A DNA stretch of 64,000 bases, taken from NCBI GenBank assembly GCA_020724465.1, contig DYGX01000006.1, positions 131,603-195,602 on the forward strand, written 5' to 3'. Both the position numbers and the translations under genes were made by a program. Below are positions 26,444-40,836 of this stretch, piece after piece; positions within the stretch are counted from its first letter, which is position 1, and each line of letters opens with the position of its first letter. Source of the stretch: Thermoflexus sp. (GTDB lineage: Bacteria > Chloroflexota > Anaerolineae > Aggregatilineales > Aggregatilineaceae). The notes beneath the pieces are model-generated. The model searched no databases. It saw only the letters and a program-made list of their open reading frames with translations, and was not told the DNA's origin.

Positions 26444-27256
26444 TTACGCCTCGTCGAGCGCGTGGCGCAGCGTCAGGGCCAGGTCGCGCACCGCTTCGAC
26501 GCCCGCGGCGGCTGCGCGCACCAGCGCGCTGCCCACGATGAACCCGTCCACCCACGCGCTCACCTGCTGGACCTGCTCCGGCCGGCTGATGCCGAACCCC
26601 AGCACCAGCGGCGTGCTCGTCGCGGCGCGGACGCGGGTGATGAACGCCTGCAGGTCAAGCGGCAGCGAGTCACGCGCGCCGGTCACGCCCGTCACCGACA
26701 CGAGATAGATGAACCCCTGCGCCCGTTGCGCCACCAGGGCGATCCGTTCCGGACTGCTGGTCGGCGCCAGGAAGACGATCTGCGCCAGCCCCTCGCGAGC
26801 GCACGCCTCGGCCAGCGGACCCGCTTCTTCCGGCGGCAGGTCGGGGACGATCACGCCCGCCGCGCCCGCCGCCCGCGCGTCCCGCGCGAAGCGCTCCAGC
26901 CCGTATGCCAGCAGCGGGTTGAGATAGCCCATCAGCAGCATCGGCTGGGTCACGCCGCGCGCGCGCAACTCGCCTACCGCGTCCAGGCAGCGCCCGACCG
27001 TCACCCCGTTCTCCAGCGCGATCTGCGTCGCCGCCTGGATCGTCGGGCCGTCCGCCAGCGGATCGCTGAACGGCATTCCGATCTCGAACCCGTCTACACC
27101 GGCCCGCGCCAGCGCCTCGATCGCGTCCAGCGAGTCGGCGACCGTCGGGTAGCCGATGGGGAAGTAGGGCAGAAACGCGGCGCGGCTCTCGCGGCGAGCG
27201 CGGGCAAACATGGCCGCGAGCGCGTCTGGCCCGGTCGTTTCTCTGGCGCCGCTCAT
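26444..27256 (-). CDS. trpA: tryptophan synthase alpha chain
   Basis: A 270-residue TIM barrel that splits indole-3-glycerol phosphate to indole and glyceraldehyde 3-phosphate. The catalytic Glu and Asp are in [16 protein letters not shown], and the phosphate loop lies near [10 protein letters not shown]. It is the last gene of the trp operon and overlaps trpB by 4 bases (ATGA), as expected for the alpha-beta complex partners. No terminator is obvious before the nth promoter, so some read-through to nth is possible. Confidence 0.97.
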
Positions 27257-28491
27257 GGCCGCCGCTCCAACGCGCCCAACACCGTGTCGAGGTCCTTGTC
27301 GCCGCGCCCGGATAGGTTGACCAGCACGATCGCGTCGGGGGGCAGCTTGGGCGCCAGTTTCACCGCCTCGGCGATGGCGTGCGCGCTCTCCAGCGCCGGG
27401 ATAATGCCTTCCAGGTGGCAGAGTAGCTCGAAGGCGGCCAGCGCCTCGTCGTCCGTGGCGACGGTGTAGTGCGCGCGCTCAAGCTGGCGCAGATAGGCGT
27501 GCTCCGGCCCGACCGAGGCGTAATCCAGCCCGGCGGAGATGCTGTGCGTCTCGCGGATCTGCCCGTCGGCGTCTTGCAGGACGAACGAGCGCGTCCCGTG
27601 CAGCACGCCGGGCCGCCCGAGCGACGGATCGGCGAAGCGCGCCGCGTGCTGGCCGCTGGCGACCCCGCGCCCCCCGGCCTCGACGCCGATCAGCTCGACG
27701 TCCTCGTCGTCGCGGAAGGCATGGAACAGCCCGATCGCGTTGCTGCCGCCGCCCACGCACGCGATACAGACATCCGGCAGGCGCCCGGCCTGCTCCAGCA
27801 TCTGGGCGCGCGCTTCGACGCCGATCACGCTCTGGAAGTCGCGCACCATCAGCGGATAGGGGTGTGGGCCAAGCGCCGAGCCGAGCAGGTAATGCGTCGT
27901 CTCGACATTGGTCACCCAGTCGCGGATCGCCTCGGTGATCGCGTCCTTGAGCGTGCGGCTGCCGCTATCGACCGGGATCACGTCCGCGCCGAGCAGCTTC
28001 ATGCGGAAGACGTTGGGCCGCTGGCGCGCCATGTCCACACTGCCCATATAGACATGACACTCCAACCCCAGCAACGCACAGACGGTGGCGCTGGCGACGC
28101 CGTGCTGGCCCGCACCGGTTTCGGCCACGATGCGCCGCTTGCCCATGCGTCGCGCCAGCAGCGCCTGGCCGAGCGCGTTGTTGATCTTGTGCGCGCCGGT
28201 GTGCGCCAGGTCTTCGCGCTTGAGGTAGATGCGCGCGCCGCCCAGGTAATCGCTCAGCCGCGCTGCGTAGCTGATCGGCGTCGGGCGGCCGCTGTAAGTA
28301 GCCTGAAGGTGCGCCAGCTCGGCCTGAAAGGCCGGGTCGGCCTGCGCCTCGAAATAGGCGGCGGTCAGCTCGTCCAGCGCCGGGACGAGCGTCTCCGGCA
28401 CGAAGCGCCCGCCGAACTCGCCGAAGTAGCCGCGCGCGTCCGGCACTTCCGCCTGCCCCACGCCGATCTTGACCGTTTGCCGTTCCATCAT
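27253..28491 (-). CDS. trpB: tryptophan synthase beta chain
   Basis: A 412-residue PLP enzyme that joins indole and serine to tryptophan. The PLP Lys is in [11 protein letters not shown], the phosphate-binding loop is GGGSNAIG, and the catalytic Glu lies in AETGAGQHG. It is of the TrpB1 type that pairs with TrpA. Two adjacent ATG codons (28491, 28488) follow GAGGAA. It lies 39 bases after the GNAT gene. Confidence 0.97.
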
Positions 28492-28530: not shown

Positions 28531-29028
28531 TCAGATCCCAACGACCCGGCTGCGCCGCTCCAGAAACACGACGTCTTTCCAGACACCGTGAAGCTGCCCG
28601 ATGCGCTCGCGGATACCGACTATGCGAAAGCCGCACGCCTGGTGCAACGCCAGACTGGCCGCGTTCTCCGGAAAAATGCCCGTTTGCAGCGTCCAGACGC
28701 CCGCCGCCTCGCTGGCTTCGACCAGCGCGCGCAGCAGCGCCTTGCCGATGCCCTGCCCCCGCGCCGCCGCCGCGATATAGATGCTGTTCTCCGCCACGCC
28801 CGCATAGACGCACCGGTCCGAGACGGGCGACAGCGCCGCCCAGCCGAGCACGCGCTCGCCGGCCCGCACCACCAGGCGGCAGTCGGGGCGGTGCGCGGCA
28901 TCCCACCGCTCCCAGGATGGCGTCTCCGTCTCGAAGGTGGCGAGACCGGTCGCGATTCCCTCGCGGTAAATCGCCTCGACCGCCGGCCAGTCGCCCGGCT
29001 GCATGGCGTCGATCACAACCTCGTTCAT
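28531..29028 (-). CDS. GNAT N-acetyltransferase, phosphinothricin/MddA-like
   Basis: A 165-residue GNAT enzyme with the acetyl-CoA loop ARGQGIGKALL and the family blocks YREGIATGLATFE, SIYIAAAARGQ and GIFPENAASLALHQACGF. These match the phosphinothricin/methionine-sulfoximine acetyltransferase group (Pat, MddA/YncA). It is placed between trpF and trpB. Its ATG overlaps the trpF stop by 4 bases, so it is translated with the pathway genes. Its role in tryptophan synthesis is unknown; it may detoxify amino-acid analogues or acetylate an intermediate. Confidence 0.9.
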   Translation of the reverse strand: MNEVVIDAMQPGDWPAVEAIYREGIATGLATFETETPSWERWDAAHRPDCRLVVRAGERVLGWAALSPVSDRCVYAGVAENSIYIAAAARGQGIGKALLRALVEASEAAGVWTLQTGIFPENAASLALHQACGFRIVGIRERIGQLHGVWKDVVFLERRSRVVGI

Positions 29029-29705
29029 ACGGCTTCTCCGGCTGCATCGACGGCGCGCACCGCCGCGATAAAGGCCCGCACCCGCGCCAGGTCTTTGACG
29101 CCCGGCGTGCCGTTCTCGACCCCGCTCGCCACATCGACGCCCCAGGGCCGGACCGCGCGCACGCGCTCGCCCACATTGCCCGGCGCCAGACCGCCCGCCA
29201 GCATCAGCCGGGGAACGCGCGCCATCACCGCCTGCGCGACCTCGACGCTGGCTGACTCGCCCGTGCCCCCGTACAGCGCGGGATGGTAGGCGTCCACCAG
29301 CAGCGCGGGCAGCCGCTCGTCGCGCGGGGCATCCGTCCGGTAGAGCGCCGCCTGCTCTCCCGCATCCGCCGGATCGCGCGGTCGCAGCGCCTTGAACGCG
29401 CGCCCGTGTAACGCCCGCAGCGTGTCGGGCGGCTCGTCGCCGCTGAGCTGGGCCGCGTCCAGCCCGGCCGCCGCGAGCGTCGCCGCGATCATGTCCGCCG
29501 GCGCGTTGACGAACACGCCGACCAGCAGCGGACAGCGCTCGCCCAGCGCGGCGCGCAGCCCATTCGCGATGTCTTGCGCCGCGTCAGGCGTCACATAGCG
29601 CGGGCTGCGCGGGTAGAAGTTGAAGCCGAGCAGATCGGCCCCGGCCTCGGCGCACGCCAGCGCGTTGTCGAGCGCCGTCAGGCCGCAGATCTTGATACGC
29701 GTCAT
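29025..29705 (-). CDS. trpF: phosphoribosylanthranilate isomerase
   Basis: A 226-residue TIM barrel that isomerises phosphoribosylanthranilate. The N-terminal KICGLT supplies the catalytic Cys, and the GVDVASGVEN loop holds the catalytic Asp. It overlaps trpC by 4 bases and the GNAT gene by 4 bases. It is a separate protein, not fused to TrpC as in E. coli. Confidence 0.96.
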   Translation of the reverse strand: MTRIKICGLTALDNALACAEAGADLLGFNFYPRSPRYVTPDAAQDIANGLRAALGERCPLLVGVFVNAPADMIAATLAAAGLDAAQLSGDEPPDTLRALHGRAFKALRPRDPADAGEQAALYRTDAPRDERLPALLVDAYHPALYGGTGESASVEVAQAVMARVPRLMLAGGLAPGNVGERVRAVRPWGVDVASGVENGTPGVKDLARVRAFIAAVRAVDAAGEAV

Positions 29706-30520
29706 CGAACCCGCTCCTTGGGCTGGCGGCTGAGCGCCTTGACCAGCTTGCCGCGATGCTCCGCCTGGATCAGCGCCTCGCCCACCAACACCGCGTCCGC
29801 GCCTGCCGCGCCCATGCGCGTCACGTCTTCGGGCGTGTGGATCCCGCTCTCGGCGACGAGCGTCACACCGGGCGGGACCAGCGGCGCCAGCCGCTCGGTG
29901 ACGGCGAGATCGACCGCGAAGGTTTTCAGGTCGCGGTTGTTGATGCCGATCAGCGCCGGGTCGACGCGCAGCGCCCGCTCCAGCTCAGCCTCGTTGTGCA
30001 CCTCGACCAGCGCCGCCATCCCCAGCGAGACGCTTTGCGCGTGCAGCGCCTCAAGCTGCGCGTCGGACAGCGCGGCCACAATCAGCAGGATCGCGTCGGC
30101 GCCCGCCGCCCGGCCCTCGTAGACCTGGTAGGGGTCAATCACGAACTCCTTGCGCAGCACCGGCAGGGGGACCGCGTTCCGCACCGCCGACAGGTGGTTC
30201 AGGTGGCCCTGGAAGAAACGCTCGTCGGTGAGGACCGAGATCGCCGCCGCGCCGTTCCCCGCGTAGACCGTGCCCAGCGCCACCGGGTCAAACGGATCAA
30301 TCAGCACGCCTTTCGACGGCGAAGCGTGCTTGACCTCGGCGATCAGCGCAACGGTCGCCCGCTGGAGCGCGGCGCAGAAGTCGCGCGGGGGGCTGACGAG
30401 GCTCGCCGCCTGCTCGAAGCGCCGGAGCGGGACGCTCTGGCGGCGCGCGGCGACTTCTTCGACCTTATGCGCCAGAATCGTGTCGAGGATGGTGCCGGTA
30501 TGCAGGAACGGGTCAGGCAT
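29702..30520 (-). CDS. trpC: indole-3-glycerol phosphate synthase
   Basis: A 272-residue TIM barrel that closes the indole ring. Signature regions are IAEVKHASPSKG with a catalytic Lys, LRKEFVIDPYQVYE, and GINNRDLKTFAVDL. It overlaps trpD by 8 bases and trpF by 4 bases, so the operon is tightly coupled. Confidence 0.97.
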   Translation of the reverse strand: MPDPFLHTGTILDTILAHKVEEVAARRQSVPLRRFEQAASLVSPPRDFCAALQRATVALIAEVKHASPSKGVLIDPFDPVALGTVYAGNGAAAISVLTDERFFQGHLNHLSAVRNAVPLPVLRKEFVIDPYQVYEGRAAGADAILLIVAALSDAQLEALHAQSVSLGMAALVEVHNEAELERALRVDPALIGINNRDLKTFAVDLAVTERLAPLVPPGVTLVAESGIHTPEDVTRMGAAGADAVLVGEALIQAEHRGKLVKALSRQPKERVR

Positions 30521-31550
30521 AGGCCAGCTCCTGGGTCAGCGCGATCAGCTCGTCCAGCTTGTTCAGCGCCGCGCCGCTGTCGATCGTCTCGCGGGCCAGC
30601 GCGATCCCGTCGCGGAAATCCGCGCACAGCCCGCCGGCTACCAGCGCCGCCCCGGCGTTGAGCACCACGACATCATGTTTGGCGCCGTCCACCTCCCCGC
30701 TCAGCACGCCGCGCAGGATGCGCGCGTTCTCCGGCGGGTCTCCACCCAGCAGTTCGGAGATGTGCGCGGGCTTGAGGTCGTAATCGAACGGGTCGAGGTC
30801 TATCGTCTCGACGGCCCCGTTTTCGTAGATGCTGACGCGGTTGGGGCCGGTGGTGGTCAGCTCGTCCAGCCCGCCGTACCCGCAGACGACGATCGCCTTC
30901 TTCGAGCCGAGCGCGCCCAGCACGTGCGCCAGAAAGTCGGTCAGGTCGGGCGCGAAGACGCCCATGAGCTGGCGCTGCGCCCCGGCGGGGTTGGTCAGCG
31001 GGCCGAGGATGTTGAAGATAGTCCGCACGCCGACCTGGCGGCGCGGCCCGATGGCGTGCTTCATGGCAGGGTGCAGCCTGGGCGCGAACAGGAAGCCGAT
31101 CCCGATGGTGTCGATGCAGTGCCCCACCTGCTCCGGCGTCAGGTCCAGGTTGACGCCCAGTTCCGCCAGCACGTCCGCGCTGCCACACCGGCTGGTCGCG
31201 GCGCGGTTGCCGTGCTTGGCGATGCGCAGCCCCGCCGCTGCCGCGACGAACGCCACCGTCGTGCTGATGTTGAACGTGCCGGATTTATCCCCGCCCGTCC
31301 CGCAGGTGTCGAGCAGGTCCCCGTTGAACCGGGTGGGGACGCGGACGGCGTTGGCGCGCATGGCGCGGGCGCTGCCGAGGATTTCCTCATGCGTCTCGCC
31401 CTTCATGCGCAGGCCCATCAGGTAGGCGCCGATCTGCGCCTCGGTCGCCTGCCCGGACATGATCTGGTGCATCACAGCTTCCGCTTCGTCGGTTTGCAGG
31501 TGCCCGAAGCGGCTGATGATCTCGATCGCGCGCTGGATGTCGATGCTCAT
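30513..31550 (-). CDS. trpD: anthranilate phosphoribosyltransferase
   Basis: Transfers the phosphoribosyl group to anthranilate. The glycine-rich PRPP site is CGTGGDKSGTFN, followed by KHGNRAATSRCGSADVL; GPLTNPAGAQRQLMGVF is the anthranilate-side signature. ATG 31550 gives 345 residues and has GAGG 8 bases upstream; ATG 31571 (352 residues) has GGAG only 3 bases before it. It follows trpG closely and is not fused to it. Confidence 0.96.
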   Translation of the reverse strand: MSIDIQRAIEIISRFGHLQTDEAEAVMHQIMSGQATEAQIGAYLMGLRMKGETHEEILGSARAMRANAVRVPTRFNGDLLDTCGTGGDKSGTFNISTTVAFVAAAAGLRIAKHGNRAATSRCGSADVLAELGVNLDLTPEQVGHCIDTIGIGFLFAPRLHPAMKHAIGPRRQVGVRTIFNILGPLTNPAGAQRQLMGVFAPDLTDFLAHVLGALGSKKAIVVCGYGGLDELTTTGPNRVSIYENGAVETIDLDPFDYDLKPAHISELLGGDPPENARILRGVLSGEVDGAKHDVVVLNAGAALVAGGLCADFRDGIALARETIDSGAALNKLDELIALTQELAYA

Positions 31551-31582
31551 GGCGGTGTCCTCGCTACTCATGCTCTCCTACC

Positions 31583-32149
31583 TTACAAGCGGTTTTCGAG
31601 GAAATTCTGCAGCAGGCGCGGCCCAAACTGGGTCAGGATGCTTTCCGGGTGGAACTGCACGCCGACAATCGGGTGCTCGCGGTGGCGCAGGGCCATCACC
31701 TCGCCGGCTTCGGTGAAGGCGGTGACTTCGAGCGCGTCCGGCAGCGGCTCCTCGACGATCAGGCTGTGGTAGCGCGTCGCCACGAACGGGTTGGGGATGC
31801 CGGTAAACAGCGGCGTGCCCTTGTGGTAGATGGGGCTGGTTTTGCCATGCATCAGGCGCGGCGCGCGCACCACCCGCCCGCCGAACGCCTGCCCGATCGC
31901 CTGCTGGCCCAGGCAGACGCCCAGCGTCGGCGTGGTGGGGCCAAGCTCGCGGATCAGGTCAAGCGAGATCCCGCCGTCGTCGGGCGTGCCGGGTCCGGGC
32001 GAGATCACGATGTGGCTGGGCCGCAGCGCGCGCGCCTCGTCGAGCGTGATGCGGTCGTTGCGGACGACACACAGCTCGGCGCCCAGCTCGCCCAGAAGCT
32101 GCACCAGGTTGTAGGTGAAGCTGTCGTAGTTGTCGATGACGAGAATCAT
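31583..32149 (-). CDS. trpG: anthranilate synthase glutaminase subunit
   Basis: A 188-residue class I glutamine amidotransferase. The nucleophile Cys is in [10 protein letters not shown], and the His-Glu pair is in QFHPESILT. It supplies ammonia to TrpE. It lies 17 bases after trpE. In some bacteria the same subunit also serves PabB; no pabB-like gene is seen here. Confidence 0.97.
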
Positions 32150-32166: not shown

Positions 32167-33711
32167 CTAGCTCAACCCTGCCTCGGCGTTTTCGACCGCC
32201 GCCGCGACGGCCCGCGCCTTGTTGACCGTTTCCTCATATTCGCGGGCCGGGTCGCTGTCCGCCACGATCCCCGCGCCCGCCTGGAAGTAGACCGTGTCGC
32301 CGCGCATCACCATCGTGCGGATCGTGATGCAGGTATCCATCGAGCCGTCGAAGCTGAAATAGCCGACCGCGCCGCCATACGGCCCGCGCCGTGTGCCTTC
32401 CAGTTCCTCGATGATCTCCATCGCGCGGACCTTCGGCGCGCCGCTCAGCGTCCCGGCGGGGAAGGTCGCGCGCAGCAGGTCGAACGCGTCCAACCCCTCG
32501 CGCAGCCGCCCCTCGACCTGGCTGACGATGTGCATCACGTGCGAATAGCGCTCGACGACCATCATCTCCGGCACGTGCACCGATCCGTACTCGCACACGC
32601 GCCCCAGATCGTTGCGCCCCAGGTCCACCAGCATGACGTGCTCGGCGCGTTCTTTCTCGTCGGCCAACAGCTCGGCGGCCAGCGCCGCGTCTTCGGCTTC
32701 GGTCGCGCCGCGCGGGCGCGTCCCGGCGATGGGGCGCACCGTCGCGACGCCGTCTTCCAGGCGGACCATCATCTCCGGCGAGGCACCGATCAGGCTCAGG
32801 TCGTCGCCAAAATGCAGGAAGAACATATAGGGCGAGGGGTTGAGCGCGCGCAGGGCGCGGTAGATAGTGAAGGGCCGGGCGGTGGTCGTGCGGTTGAACC
32901 GCTGCGAAAGCACGATCTGGAAGGCGTCGCCGGCGGCGATGTATTCCTTGGCGGCGCGCACCATCCCCTCAAAATGCGCGCGCGTCATGTTCGAGCGCAG
33001 GTCACTGCCGGGGCCGGGCGCGGCGGGCGCTTCGGGCTGGAGTTGTAGCGGCTGGCGCAGCAGCGCGTCGATCGCGTCAATGCGCGCCAGCGCGTCGTCA
33101 TAGGCCGCGTCGGGGTCGCCGGTGTTGTGCGCGTTCGCCAACAGGATCAACTGGTGCTTGACGTGGTCGAAGATAACCAGCGTATCGGCCAGCAGAAAGG
33201 CGGCGTCCGGCAGATCGAGATCGTCGCTGGCGGTCGCGGGCAGGTCCTCGATGGCGCGCACGATGTCGTAGGCCAGATAGCCGACCGCCCCGCCCACAAA
33301 GCGCGGCAGCCCGTCCAGCTTGACCGGGCGGACGCGCTCGAACTCGCGCGCGATGGCGTGCAGCGCATCCTCGCCCGGCTCCAACACGCGTTCGGCAGTC
33401 TGCCCGTTGCGCGTGACGCGGACCGCGCCGTCCTTGACGGTCAGAATGCCTTTCGGGTTGACGCCGAGAAACGAATAGCGCCCGATCTGCTCGCCCCCTT
33501 CGACGCTCTCCAGCAGAAAGGATACCGGGTTGGCGCGGGTCAGCTTGAGGAAGACAGACACCGGCGTCTCCAGGTCCGCCAGCAGCGTGCGATACACCGG
33601 GACCAGATCGCCCTGCTCGAACAGCCGGCGGACGGTGTCGCGATCGGGCGTGACCTGCGCGCGGGCTGGTTGCGCGGCGGGTGAATGAACGGTCTGTGTT
33701 GAAAGTGCCAT
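32167..33711 (-). CDS. trpE: anthranilate synthase component I
   Basis: A 514-residue chorismate-using enzyme that commits chorismate to tryptophan. The feedback-inhibition motif LLES is present ([20 protein letters not shown]), so the enzyme is probably inhibited by Trp. C-terminal blocks are [19 protein letters not shown] and [15 protein letters not shown]. The start at 33711 begins the conserved part; upstream codons lie in the T-box terminator. Transcription is controlled by the tryptophan T-box leader directly upstream. Confidence 0.96.
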
Positions 33712-33746: not shown

Positions 33747-33787
33747 AAACAAAAATCCCCTTCGCGCTCAAGGACGAGAAAGGGGAT
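33747..33787 (-). terminator. T-box-controlled intrinsic terminator before trpE
   Basis: ATCCCCTT and AAGGGGAT form an 8-bp stem (33755-33787), followed on the minus strand by TTTTTGTT. The left arm begins immediately after the T-box, so antiterminator and terminator exclude each other. Confidence 0.92.
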
Positions 33788-34095
33788 CCCGCGGTGCCAC
33801 CTTGCTTAAGCCGCCCGACCCCCAAAAACAAAAAAATCCACGGTGAACGCAGATTTTTGGGGAGAGCCAGCTTCACTCATTGGGGTACGGACCCGGACGA
33901 GTCGATACCCGCTGCCCTGATAACGGTGGCGTCTCCGGTGCGGGCTACTGGGCGTGGTCGCCGTTCGACCGCACAGCTCCCTGGTCCATTCCGCGCCCGC
34001 GCATGTATCGCCTTCGCAGCACCCGGCGACTCTCTGAACACCGCCCTGACGCGTACTATCCCAGATCGCAGCTTTTGATGTATGCGATTGGTTAG
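33747..34095 (-). promoter_or_regulatory. tryptophan T-box riboswitch of the trp operon
   Basis: On the minus strand the leader holds the T-box AAGGTGGCACCGCGG (33789-33803) directly before a terminator. Upstream is an AGAGAG motif (34030-34035) leading into a stem I tip with GGGTGCTGCGAA. On the 3' side of stem I is a specifier GAATGGACC, whose codon TGG is at 33986-33988. The bulge TGGC pairs with a tRNA ending GCCA, matching the G discriminator of tRNA-Trp. So uncharged tRNA-Trp should stabilise the antiterminator and turn on trpE-A. The class is well established; the assignment here is from sequence. Confidence 0.93.
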
Positions 34096-34100
34096 GTAAC

Positions 34101-34129
34101 AAAGTAGCAGGGAACGCGCGTCTTGTCAA
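34101..34129 (-). promoter_or_regulatory. trp operon promoter
   Basis: TTGACA (34124-34129) and TACTTT (34101-34106) with a 17-base spacer on the minus strand. This is one of the best sigma-70-type promoters in the window; transcription should start near 34094. Confidence 0.85.
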
Positions 34130-35435: not shown

Positions 35436-36482
35436 ATGATCGTTGTGATGAACGCCAACGCCAACGCCCGCGATATTTCCGAGGTCATCGCCCGCATCCG
35501 CGCCATGGGCTACGACGTGCACCTGTCGCATGGCAAGGAGCGGACCATCATCGGCGTGATCGGGCGCGGCACGCCCATCGATCGCGACAAGCTTAGCTTG
35601 CTGCCGGGCGTGCAGCAGGTCGTGCCCGTCACGCACCCGTACAAGATCGCCAGCCGCGAATTCCACCCCGACGACACCCTGGTGCCGCTCAACGGGATCG
35701 AGGTCGGCGGCCCGAACCTGGCGATTATCGCCGGACCGTGCTCGGTTGAGAGCCGCGAGCAGATCATCGAGACCGCCCACGCCGTGCGCGAGGCCGGCGC
35801 GACCGCCCTGCGCGGGGGCGCCTTCAAGCCGCGCACCTCGCCCTACAGCTTCCAGGGGCTGGGCGAAGAGGGCCTGCGCTATCTGGCCGAAGCCCGCGAG
35901 GCGACCGGCCTGCCGGTCGTCACCGAGGTCATGGACCCGGCGCTTGTCTCCCTGGTGTGCGACTATGCGGACGTGCTGCAGGTGGGGGCGCGCAATATGC
36001 AGAACTACGCCCTGCTGCACGCCGTCGGCGAGAGCCAGCATCCCGTGCTGCTCAAACGCGGCATGAGCAATACCATTGAGGAGCTGCTCATGGCTGCCGA
36101 GTACATCTTGAGCCACGGTAATATGCGGGTGATGCTCTGCGAGCGCGGCATCCGCACCTTCGAGACGTATACGCGCAACACGTTCGACATCAACGCCATC
36201 CCCGTCCTCAAGCACATCTCGCACCTGCCCGTGATCGCGGATCCGAGCCACGCCGTCGGCAAGTGGGAATATGTTGAGGCCGTCGCGATGGGCGCGGTCG
36301 CTGCGGGAGCGGACGGGATCATCGTGGAAGTGCACATGCACCCGGAAATCGCGCAGTCGGACGGGCAGCAGTCGCTCAAGCCGGAGCGGTTCGCCGCCCT
36401 GGTCGAAAAGCTGCGCCAGCTTGCACCGGTCGTTGGGCGCCAGGTCGCGCCTAGCCCGCAGGCGGTGGGGCCACATGCCTGA
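35436..36482 (+). CDS. aroF: 3-deoxy-7-phosphoheptulonate (DAHP) synthase
   Basis: A 348-residue type I-beta DAHP synthase, first step of the shikimate pathway. Residues 1-70 are the extra ferredoxin-like/ACT-type domain ([20 protein letters not shown]) that gives feedback inhibition in Thermotoga-like enzymes. The catalytic barrel has [34 protein letters not shown] and [12 protein letters not shown] with metal ligands. AGGAGAG precedes the ATG. Its stop overlaps tyrA by 8 bases. Enzyme inhibition and attenuation together would give two layers of control. Confidence 0.96.
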
Positions 36483-37338
36483 AGCGCTGGCCGGCTGCAC
36501 CGTCCACATCGTCGGGCTAGGGCTGATGGGCGGCTCGCTGGCGCTGGCGCTGCGCGGTCATGTCGAGCGCCTGACCGGCCACGATCTGAGCCGCGAAGCG
36601 GCCGAGCACGCCCGGCGGACGGGCGCCATTGACGAGGAGTCCGCCAGCGCGTGGGGCGCCGACATCATTGTGCTGGCGATTCCCGCCGACCGGATCGTGA
36701 GCCAGGTCGCCGCCCTGGACGCCCGGCCCGGCGCGCTGGTCATCGACCTGGGCAGCACCAAGACGCAGATCTGCGCCGCGCTGGATCGCCTGCCGGACGG
36801 CGTGCGCGCCGTCGGCGGGCACCCGATGTGCGGGCTGGCAGAAAACGGCTACCAGCACGCCATCCCGACACTCTACCGGGGCGCGCGTTTCGTGCTGTGC
36901 GAAACGGCGCGCACCACGCCCGACGCCCGCGCGCTGGCCGAGGCGCTTGTGCGCGCTGTTGGAGCGCATCCGCTGTGGATGGACCGGTGCCGCCACGACG
37001 AGCTGGCTGCCCTGACCAGCCATCTGCCGCACCTGCTCAATTTCGCCCTGATGCGGCTGGCGATGGCGCGCGCGGCCCAGGATCCGGACGTTTACGCCCT
37101 GGCTGCGGGCGGGTTTGACGGGGCGACCCGCCTGGCCCGCACCGCCGAGAGCATGATCGCGGGGATGTTCAGCACCAATGCCGACGAGCTTCGCCGGGCC
37201 GCCGCCGAGCTGCGCGAGCATCTGGATGCGCTGGAATGTCTGCTCGACGACGCGCCCGCGCTCCAGCGCGAGCTGGGGGCCATCGTCGAAGCCCGCCGGG
37301 CCTATACCACCGCCTATGGAGAGCGTCTGATCACATGA
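36475..37338 (+). CDS. tyrA: prephenate dehydrogenase
   Basis: A 287-residue NAD(P)-dependent enzyme making 4-hydroxyphenylpyruvate (or the arogenate equivalent). The Rossmann motif [13 protein letters not shown] is at about 14-26; [14 protein letters not shown] and the C-terminal helical domain ([13 protein letters not shown]) carry the catalytic His and substrate site. ATG 36475 overlaps the aroF stop; GTGGGG is the SD. There is no C-terminal ACT domain. Specificity for prephenate over arogenate cannot be told. Confidence 0.94.
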
Positions 37339-38687
37339 GCGAGCCTCTAACCCACGACGTTCAGGTTCGGGTGCGTCCGGGGCGCACGCTACAGGGCGCC
37401 TGCCACGTGCCCGGCGACAAGTCGATCTCGCACCGCGCGCTGATCCTCGGCGCGCTGGCGGACGGCACCAGCCAGGTGCGCGGGAGCCTGTCCGCCGGGG
37501 ACACCCGCGCCACCCTGGGCGTGATGCGGGCACTGGGCGTGGCGATCGAGACGCCCGACCCGACGACGTTAATCGTGCACGGGCGCGGGCTGCGCGGCCT
37601 GGAACCGCCCGCCGCGGCGCTCGACTGCGGCCACGCGGGAACCGCGATCCGGCTTCTGGCAGGCGTGCTGGCCGGGCAGCGCTTCACCAGCGTGCTGGAC
37701 GGCAGCGCCCAGCTTCGCCGCCGCCCGATGCGCCGCGTGGTCGAGCCGCTGCGCCAGATGGGCGCCCAGATCACGGACACACGCGGCTGTGCCCCCTTAC
37801 GGGTGGTCGGGTCGCCGCTGCACGGGATCGCCTACCGGATGCCGGTCGCCAGCGCCCAGGTCAAGAGCAGCATTTTGCTGGCCGGGCTGCTTGCCAGCGG
37901 GCCGACCGCCGTGATCGAACCCGGCCCGGCGCGCGATCACACCGAGCGGATGCTGCGCGCGATGGGCGTCGATGTGGAGACGGCGGACGGCTGCTGCGTG
38001 ACACTCATCCCGCCCGCCCGATTGCACCCCCTTGACCTGAGCGTGCCGGGTGATCTATCCTCTGCAACGTTCGTGCTGGTGGCGGCGCTGCTCGCCGGCG
38101 CCGGCGACGTGACGATCGCGGATGTGGGCGTCAACCCCACACGCACCGGCATCCTCGATATTCTGGGCGCCATGGGCGCCAGCATCGCGCAGCAAGACCC
38201 CCGCGCGGAATCGGGCGAGCCGGTGGCGGATCTGGTCGTCCGCCCGTCGGCGCTGCGCGGCACCGCGATCGCGGGCGATTGGGTGGTGCGCGCCATCGAC
38301 GAGTTCCCGGCGCTGATGATCGCCGCGACTCAGGCCGAGGGCGTGACCGAGGTGCGCGGCGCGGGAGAGCTGCGCGTCAAGGAAACGGATCGCATCGCGG
38401 TGATGGCGGCAGAGCTGCGCAAGCTGGGCGCCAGCATCGAGGAGTGGCCGGACGGGTTCCGCATCACCGGGCCGCAGCGGCTGCGCGGCGCCACCGTCGA
38501 CGGGCACGACGATCACCGCGTGGCGATGGCGCTGGTGCTGGCCGGGCTGGTCGCCGAGGGGCCGACTACCGTCGCCAACGCGCGCTGCATTGAGGATTCC
38601 TTTCCGGGGTTTGTCGAGACGCTGCAGGCGCTCGGCGCGGACGTGGCACAGGTCATCGCGGGCGAGCGCAGTGAGCGAACAGCATGA
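37335..38687 (+). CDS. aroA: 3-phosphoshikimate 1-carboxyvinyltransferase (EPSP synthase)
   Basis: A 450-residue enzyme that adds enolpyruvate to shikimate 3-phosphate. Signature blocks are PGDKSISHRALILGAL, the DCGHAGTAIRLLAG region, RRRPMRRVVEPLRQMG and VKETDRIAVMAAELRKLG. The LDCGHAGTAIR form (GNAGT in many class I enzymes) shows an unusual His in the loop near the glyphosate-site Gly-Ala; its effect is unknown. ATG 37335 overlaps the tyrA stop by 4 bases. Confidence 0.96.
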   Translation: MSEPLTHDVQVRVRPGRTLQGACHVPGDKSISHRALILGALADGTSQVRGSLSAGDTRATLGVMRALGVAIETPDPTTLIVHGRGLRGLEPPAAALDCGHAGTAIRLLAGVLAGQRFTSVLDGSAQLRRRPMRRVVEPLRQMGAQITDTRGCAPLRVVGSPLHGIAYRMPVASAQVKSSILLAGLLASGPTAVIEPGPARDHTERMLRAMGVDVETADGCCVTLIPPARLHPLDLSVPGDLSSATFVLVAALLAGAGDVTIADVGVNPTRTGILDILGAMGASIAQQDPRAESGEPVADLVVRPSALRGTAIAGDWVVRAIDEFPALMIAATQAEGVTEVRGAGELRVKETDRIAVMAAELRKLGASIEEWPDGFRITGPQRLRGATVDGHDDHRVAMALVLAGLVAEGPTTVANARCIEDSFPGFVETLQALGADVAQVIAGERSERTA

Positions 38688-39532
38688 ATGAGCAGGCCAA
38701 CCAGACGACGCGGGTCGGGCTGTTCGGCTGGCCGGTGGAGCACAGTCTTTCGCCCGCCATGCACAACGCGGCCTTTCTGGCCCTGAAGATGAACTGGCGC
38801 TACGAGCTGCTGCCCGTCCCGCCGGGGCGGCTGGCGGACGAGGTCGCGCGGCGGGTGGATGAGGGCTTCCGCGGCTTCAACGTGACCGTGCCGCACAAGC
38901 GCGCCGTCCTCGACCTGCCGCAGATCAGCGAGGTGACGCCCGCCGCCCAGGCCATCGGCGCGGCCAACACGCTCACCGTCCTGCCGGACGGCACGCTGCA
39001 GGCCGACAACACCGACTGGGAAGGCTTCCAGCGCGATCTGCAGATGTATCGCGTCGCGCCCGACCGGCTCAACTGTCTGGTGCTGGGCACAGGCGGCAGC
39101 GCGCGGGCGGTGATCTACGCGCTGGAGCAGATGGGCGCGCGCTCGATTGTGAGCGTCAGCCGCCAGCCGGACGGCAGCGCCAGGGTGATCGGCTACGACG
39201 AGCTGGCCGCGCACGCGCCGGGGGCCAACCTGGTCATCAACTGCACGCCGCTCGGCCTGGCGCCGGATGTCGAGCGCTCGCCCTGGCCGGACGGCGTCCC
39301 GCTGCCGGAGCACGCGATGCTGTACGATCTGGTTTACAACCCGCCGGTCACCGCGCTGATGCGCCGCTTCATGGCGGCGGGGCTGCGCGCGTTCGGCGGG
39401 CTGGGGATGCTGGTGTGGCAGGGCGCGCTGGCCTGGATACGCTGGACCGACGCCCGCCCGCCAGTGGACATTATGTTTGCTGCGGCGCGCAACGCGTTGC
39501 GCGCCATGACTGCCCCGCCTGGGGCTGGATAG
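38684..39532 (+). CDS. aroE: shikimate dehydrogenase
   Basis: A 282-residue NADP-dependent enzyme reducing 3-dehydroshikimate. N-terminal substrate site [17 protein letters not shown] and [10 protein letters not shown] with the catalytic Lys; DNTDWEGF holds the Asp. The Rossmann loop is [14 protein letters not shown]. It overlaps aroA by 4 bases (ATGA). Confidence 0.96.
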
Positions 39533-39543
39533 GAGCAATCTGC

Positions 39544-40836
39544 ATGACGACGGCAGAACTCACCGGCACCCTCGTCGACGAACTGCGCTGGCGAGGGCTG
39601 ATCCACAACACGACCGAGGGCGCTGAGGACGTCCTGGCCCGCGAGAAGGTCACCGCCTACATCGGCTTCGATCCCAGCGCCGACAGCCTGCATGTCGGCC
39701 ACCTGGTGCCGATCATGGTGCTGGTGCACCTGCAACGCTACGGCCACCACCCGATCGCGCTGGCGGGCGGCGGCACCGGGATGATCGGCGACCCCGGCGG
39801 CAAGACCAAGGAACGCCCCTTGCTCTCGGAAGAAGAGCTGGCGCACAACCTGGAAGGCATCAAGCGCCAGCTCAGCCAGTTCCTGAAGTTCGAAGGCGTG
39901 CCCAACCCGGCGCGGCTTCTCAACAACGCGGACTGGCTGACGAAGCTGAACCTGATCGGCTTCCTGCGCGACATCGGCAAGCACTTCACCGTCAACTACA
40001 TGATCGCCAAGGATTCGGTCCGCATGCGGCTGGAAAGCGAGGAAGGCATCTCGTTCACCGAGTTCAGCTACATGCTGCTCCAGGCCTACGACTTCCTGCG
40101 GCTCTACCAGGATTACGGCTGCACGTTCCAGATGGGCGGCAGCGACCAGTGGGGCAACATCACCGCCGGGGTCGAGCTGATCCGCAAGGTGGCGGATGGC
40201 AAAGCGCACGCCGTGACCGTCCCCCTCGTCACGTCGTCCAGCGGCGTGAAATTCGGTAAGACCGTGGCCGGGGCTGTCTGGCTCGACCCCAGGCGGACGT
40301 CGCCGTTCCGCTTCTACCAGTTCTGGATCAACACCCCCGACGCGGACGTGATCACGTACCTCAAGTACTTCACGCTGCTCGACCGCGAGACCATCGCGGC
40401 GCTGGAGCACGCCGTCGCCACCGAGCCGCACCGGCGCGCCGCCCAGATCCGTCTGGCCGAAGAAGTGACGCGCATGGTTCACGGCGAATCCGGGCTGCAA
40501 GCCGCCCAGGCCGCGACCGAAGTCCTGTTCGGCGACCGCGATCTGGCCGGCCTGAGCGCGGACGATCTGCTGGATATCTTCGCCGAGGTGCCGTCCACCA
40601 CGCTCGACGCGGCGGCGCTGCGCGGCGAGGGAATGAGCCTGGTCGATCTGGTGGCGCAGACCGGCCTGGAAAGCTCCAAGGCGCAGGCGCGGCGGCTGAT
40701 CGAAAGCGGCGGGCTGTCGCTCAATAACCGCCGCGTGGACGACACCGCCGCCCGCGTCACGCTGGCAGACGCGATCGAGGGGCGCGTGCTGGTCCTGCGC
40801 AAGGGCAAGAAGTCGTACCATCTGATCCGCGTGTGA
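39544..40836 (+). CDS. tyrS: tyrosyl-tRNA synthetase
   Basis: A 430-residue class I synthetase. The HIGH motif reads HVGH (50-53) and the KMSKS motif reads KFGKT (236-240), as in bacterial Tyr[11 protein letters not shown] is the tyrosine-site signature. A C-terminal S4 RNA-binding domain is at about 360-425 ([20 protein letters not shown]). AGGAG lies 8 bases before ATG 39544. It sits inside the aromatic operon, so tyrosine charging and tyrosine synthesis respond to the same attenuator. Confidence 0.97.

Follow-up and report, generated by a model that had tools for sequence, protein, structure and literature searches.

Tryptophan T-boxes on trpE and trpB-like genes were reported in Dehalococcoides in 2008 (PMC2494555). 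In T-boxes generally, stem III stands within a purine motif, 5'-RRRxG-stem III-AA-3', and insertions of unknown function, found in every domain, are named among the open questions (PMC7583486). What stem III itself does is described as unclear, with a stalling role only speculated (PMC6197855); the same paper cites a report of NusG-aided pausing at stem III of glyQS. NusG-dependent pauses of Bacillus subtilis combine a hairpin with TTNTTT, and rely on an N and a T residue of NusG for the T-rich contact; the first to be discovered was that of the trp leader, in which the delay allows TRAP to bind (PMC12288461). NusG-dependent terminators often carry distal interruptions of the U-tract (PMC8060035).

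Here, we describe a leader within a 64-kb window (the whole stretch of 64,000 nucleotides that was analysed) from a Thermoflexus sp. assembly. The leader is very probably a transcriptional, tryptophan-specific T-box, a statement that covers its T-box part, and its stem III ends in a hairpin with a U-tract. This stem III arm is a real, class-wide elaboration restricted to tryptophan T-boxes.

Read from the sequence, the minus strand from 34129 to 33747 holds a promoter-like element, a complete T-box leader and a terminator. The predicted promoter (34101-34129) pairs TTGACA at 34129-34124 with TACTTT at 34106-34101 across a 17-nt spacer; an initial annotation had listed it together with AGAGAG, a specifier, a T-box and a terminator, and all five are present on the minus strand. 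Positions 34078-33767 match the T-box family RF00230 over the whole model (1-219) at 93.7 bits (cmscan, E 3.2e-19), the sole Rfam match in the window at the gathering threshold. The covariance-model hit that the annotation anticipated was thus obtained just above the cut-off. To reach this score the model absorbed two long insertions: 54 nt within stem III, and another stretch that separates stem III from the F-box.

Sequence and covariance model together establish the anatomy. The AGAGAG motif of stem I (34030-34035) aligns to the CAGAGA positions of the model, and the F-box CCGUUA of stem IIA/B (33921-33926) is identical in relatives. Between IIA/B and stem III, an extra helix, GGGUA...UACCC, is seen in the sequence at 33883-33910; it recurs as GGGUAUCG...GUACC in the trpE leaders of relatives, both with and without the stem III arm. 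GAGUG at 33874-33878 is the 5' purine motif (RRRxG) of stem III, and the flanks GAGUG ... AA satisfy the motif in full. In the RF00230 alignment the antiterminator spans 33770-33803, with the T-box sequence AAGGTGGCACCGCGG and the bulge UGGC at 33799-33796. An intrinsic terminator with its U-tract follows at 33747-33787 (-17.3 kcal/mol; d-score 15.2 by the d'Aubenton-Carafa formula in our own coding, used throughout), its arms ATCCCCTT and AAGGGGAT leading into TTTTGTTT, which ends at 33747. Because the antiterminator (33803-33770) includes AUCCCCUU, the 5' arm of the terminator, the two structures exclude each other at the sequence level.

Thermodynamic folding of the 361-nt leader alone did not rise above chance against shuffles (z 0.15), and the minimum-free-energy global fold of the whole leader disagrees with the T-box model. 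The T-box structure rests instead on the covariance model, on its conservation among relatives and on covarying pairs. One could argue from the score, only 0.7 bits above the RF00230 gathering cut-off of 93 bits, that the region is an ordinary attenuator or a chance match. We regard this reading as having next to no probability. Comparison already contradicts it: the corresponding position in relatives reaches up to 119 bits, all diagnostic elements are present, and the cognate gene and tRNA agree.

The specifier codon UGG (33986-33988, minus strand, context GAA-UGG-ACC) sits at the RF00230 specifier position in stem I, beside GAA and followed by a purine, in agreement with the UGG specifier of the annotation, and the same codon is present in trpE leaders taken from relatives. 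The genome's only tRNA-Trp (anticodon CCA) has G73 as its discriminator and hence ends in GCCA, which is complementary to the bulge UGGC, as the annotation had it for TGGC and GCCA.

Assignment of the leader to the trp operon, also part of the annotation, is borne out by the genes downstream, which Pfam orders as trpE-trpG-trpD-trpC-trpF-GNAT-trpB-trpA. All lie on the minus strand: trpE (anthranilate synthase I) at 32167-33711 (PF00425, PF04715), trpG (GATase) at 31583-32149 (PF00117), trpD at 30513-31571 (PF00591, PF02885), trpC at 29702-30520 (PF00218), trpF at 29025-29705 (PF00697), a GNAT acetyltransferase between trpF and trpB at 28531-29028 (PF00583), trpB at 27253-28491 (PF00291) and trpA at 26444-27256 (PF00290). 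The closest named TrpE relatives come from metagenome-assembled genomes labelled Chloroflexi, Anaerolineae and Caldilineaceae. Divergent from the leader, on the plus strand, is a small KTSC-domain gene (PF13619, 34250-34498). A further divergent plus-strand cluster at 35436-40836 appears, from translations only, to concern aromatic amino acids, its frames resembling DAHP synthase, prephenate dehydrogenase, EPSP synthase, shikimate dehydrogenase and tyrosyl-tRNA synthetase.

By analogy with the T-box family, uncharged tRNA-Trp would make two contacts, its CCA anticodon with the UGG of stem I and its 3' GCCA with the bulge UGGC; this binding would stabilise the antiterminator, prevent the terminator and let RNA polymerase enter trpEGDCFBA, while charged tRNA-Trp would leave the terminator intact. 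As a class I transcriptional T-box the leader shares with RF00230 members the UGG stem I, the IIA/B F-box, the stem III purine motif, the UGGN bulge, the mutually exclusive terminator and the cognate operon. This core is ordinary in kind, since tryptophan T-boxes on trpE and trpB-like genes have already been reported in Chloroflexi (PMC2494555). What the leader adds to the RF00230 plan is the extra helix before stem III and, within stem III, a conserved hairpin and U-tract arm.

An A/T-rich hairpin around 33820-33862, already seen in the annotation, proved to be real and forms the apical part of stem III, the tip of an arm in which a U-tract directly follows the hairpin. The whole of stem III (33808-33873, minus strand, outer pairs AAGC/GCUU) is matched at 86.4 bits by a stem III covariance model, R1, which was built from tryptophan T-boxes including the window sequence (cmsearch). 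The inner hairpin AAAAAUCUGCG-UUCAC-CGUGGAUUUUU (33832-33858) is covarying and reaches -8.6 kcal/mol alone; the U-tract UUUUUUUGUUUUU (33824-33836) fits TTNTTT and gives a terminator d-score of 17.9. With the window tail TTTTTTTGTTTTT, an RNA hairpin followed by TTNTTT is present.

The same plan recurs in relatives. In an alignment of 17 trpE leaders from 17 genomes (15 of the same family and two of a sister family), every arm has its outer pairs and, within them, a roughly six-pair hairpin that runs straight into a U-tract. The d-score is above zero in all 17 of the trpE leaders with extended stem III and in none with a short one, and the arms of 45 tryptophan T-boxes score above zero. Of 396 genomes of the class, 101 have an arm-bearing stem III by R1; when the phylum was sampled more widely, every match but one fell in the host's class, the exception being a genome with 8% contamination. 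All 28 of the R1 loci newly fetched from other families and inspected are UGG T-boxes, followed, where readable, by trpE, trpS or a TrpB2-like gene (representative Pfam matches). In these other families GC-rich arm hairpins are common, one being CGCGCC-AUCAC-GGCGCG with UUUUUUUGUU after it, and their d-scores, mostly 20-50, are those of full terminators. The arm was also considered as a mobile repeat and rejected, with one match only in the genome itself. We found no earlier description of it, though parts may have appeared in T-box reviews.

Because R1 was built from tryptophan T-boxes, we measured specificity independently of it. From 12 arm-bearing genomes we took 69 RF00230 matches with a recognisable T-box motif and scored each for a terminator-like hairpin located up to 95 bases upstream of the T-box. 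Such a hairpin precedes 18 of the 20 T-boxes scored UGG, against one of the 49 others. The lone positive among the latter (L352) coincides with L235, which reads GAATGG, and is a UGG T-box that the pattern missed; the two UGG-scored T-boxes lacking the arm (L294 and L301) contain further possible specifier codons, and their assignment to UGG may be wrong. In a control set of 37 T-boxes, none without the UGG pattern had a d-score above zero.

The base pairs of the arm indicate selection. MAFFT misplaced several hairpins and model-fitted alignments were too gappy, so we anchored 47 hairpins at the U-tract and used the 38 distinct ones for pair counting. Standard pairs fill 97.8% of cells, against 68% with partners shuffled, and not one of 2000 shuffles attained the 97.8%. 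This percentage is biased upward, as only sequences that fold into hairpins were selected, and the shuffles ignore relatedness. Changes on both sides occur in 68 cells, and several pairs take three or more pair types, indicating repeated compensation. Related families include tryptophan T-boxes without the arm, and so does the genome itself: a second UGG T-box (L006, G000:C4:62167-62393, plus strand), before a TrpB2-like gene, has a short stem III without the arm. The arm is thus not required. That some close families and this TrpB2 T-box manage without it might suggest neutral baggage inherited within tryptophan T-boxes, a reading that we consider very improbable, since the 68 compensatory cells, the 0/2000 shuffles and a U-tract kept across the 17-genome alignment while the outer arms drift all speak for selection.

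The hairpin loop is also patterned, with UCAC present in 27 of the 38 distinct hairpins. This goes beyond what a terminator needs and could mark, with the U-rich bulge, a protein-binding site and not a polymerase signal. We consider such a site improbable: the U-tract lies exactly where that of a terminator or pause would be, and no candidate protein is known. We also considered that the UCAC loop might form a pseudoknot with GUGA or GUGG near the T-box, but set this aside, the partner being too nearly invariant for covariation to show it. Taken broadly, a role other than pausing or termination is unlikely.

In nascent RNA, a hairpin with a U-tract beside it makes RNA polymerase either pause or let go. 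The arm stands just before the antiterminator, a position that suits a timing device, and its most likely role, at about an even chance, is that of a hairpin-stabilised RNA polymerase pause. It would then hold the polymerase, possibly with the help of NusG, just before antiterminator synthesis, and the already transcribed stems I and II would bind scarce tRNA-Trp during the wait. In NusG-dependent hairpin-stabilised pauses the RNA 3' end lies 11-12 nt from the hairpin. Of 45 arms, 41 have TTNTTT no more than 12 bases downstream of the hairpin, compared with 26 of the 54 main terminators of these leaders. The G in the U-tract of the window's arm resembles the distal interruptions of NusG-dependent terminators (PMC8060035). 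The host NusG contains RNTPGVTGFVG, with the N-T pair that is necessary, though not sufficient, for T-rich pausing; the same sequence occurs in four of five other genomes, with RDTP in G402.

The main rival to a pause makes the arm a genuine terminator, the earlier of two in series in the leader, which would be partly read through or gated by something other than the antiterminator. We retain this partial or conditional upstream terminator because the GC-rich arms look like full terminators, and in those families the arms fit termination better than a pause. The arm has the full anatomy of a terminator (hairpin, no gap, U-tract), CGCGCC-AUCAC-GGCGCG with its U-tract scores d of about 50, like main terminators, and several arm-bearing leaders of families f1 and f3 have weak main terminators (d of about 0-6 in L039, L049, L052 and L053). 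On the other hand, an unconditional strong stop before the antiterminator would shut the operon regardless of tRNA-Trp, no alternative pairing that opens the arm was found, and the hairpin in the window is weak (-3.9 kcal/mol for its core). On balance we hold an upstream terminator to be possible but rather unlikely.

A pausing arm would have partial precedents. Like the B. subtilis trp leader pause, it combines a hairpin with TTNTTT and would provide time for a regulator in a trp leader; the regulator there is the TRAP protein (PMC12288461), whereas in our T-box leader tRNA-Trp would take that part. The likeness to B. subtilis glyQS is a stem III pause before the antiterminator, seen with NusG (as cited in PMC6197855), which for our leader is a proposal from its anatomy. 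The glyQS stem III is small, while in the window the signal has a covarying hairpin of its own, followed by a long U-tract; arms of this type occurred only in tryptophan T-boxes among those tested. The Dehalococcoides T-boxes share with ours the phylum, the specificity and both kinds of target gene; the accessible portion of that report does not mention a stem III arm, and we liken the two by description, not by structure (PMC2494555).

All 61 genomes searched (the host's own and 60 relatives) contain T-boxes. The host has eight, of which seven look, from aligned specifiers and downstream reading frames, like those of trpE (UGG), a TrpB2-like gene (UGG), leuS (CUC), pheS, serS, thrS and a methyltransferase/valS-like type, the last preceding a methyltransferase and a valS-like gene.

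In the leuS T-box (L008, G000:C55:172269-172599, minus strand; specifier CUC), stem III encloses an entire tRNA-Ala(GGC) gene that reads in the same direction; no second tRNA gene with this anticodon turned up in the assembly. The arrangement is also found in relatives of three families; homologues of the leuS T-box are L070-L095 and L262-L291. A strict pattern of tRNA T-arm, 31-61 bases and T-box occurs in 31 of 396 class genomes, against one match in total for the reversed pattern that served as control. All 30 loci fetched contain tRNA-Ala(GGC), 29 have a CUC specifier by pattern, and leuS lies just downstream in 20 or so; in the remainder the sequence is truncated, leuS falls beyond it, or leuS was not recognised. 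Of the 30 loci, 26 also have a tRNA-Ala(CGC) gene immediately before stem I, and their elements run tRNA-Ala(CGC) - stem I/II - tRNA-Ala(GGC) - antiterminator - leuS. Rfam confirms the overlap of T-box and tRNA families in divergent examples. A SAM riboswitch (RF00162, 93.7 bits) lies near the leuS T-box of one relative, on the opposite strand (L074:3541-3648, plus strand). Our literature search, which covered few subscription papers, found no report of a tRNA gene inside a T-box.

The hairpin of tryptophan T-boxes, a putative polymerase-arresting element, and the tRNA-Ala gene of leuS T-boxes occupy the same spot. Stem III in T-boxes of this class might be a platform for working inserts, a tentative generalisation to which we give slightly less than an even chance. 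The tRNA-Ala gene inside the leuS T-box suggests a single leader serving as both riboswitch and tRNA precursor. As for the arm, a covarying element restricted to one specificity makes the old question of what stem III does testable, and the armless T-boxes of other specificity in the same genomes offer a clean comparison for the timing of tRNA sensing by polymerase pausing. If the proposed role is true, the arm times or gates the sensing of tRNA-Trp, and the leader would be a T-box with two transcriptional checkpoints.
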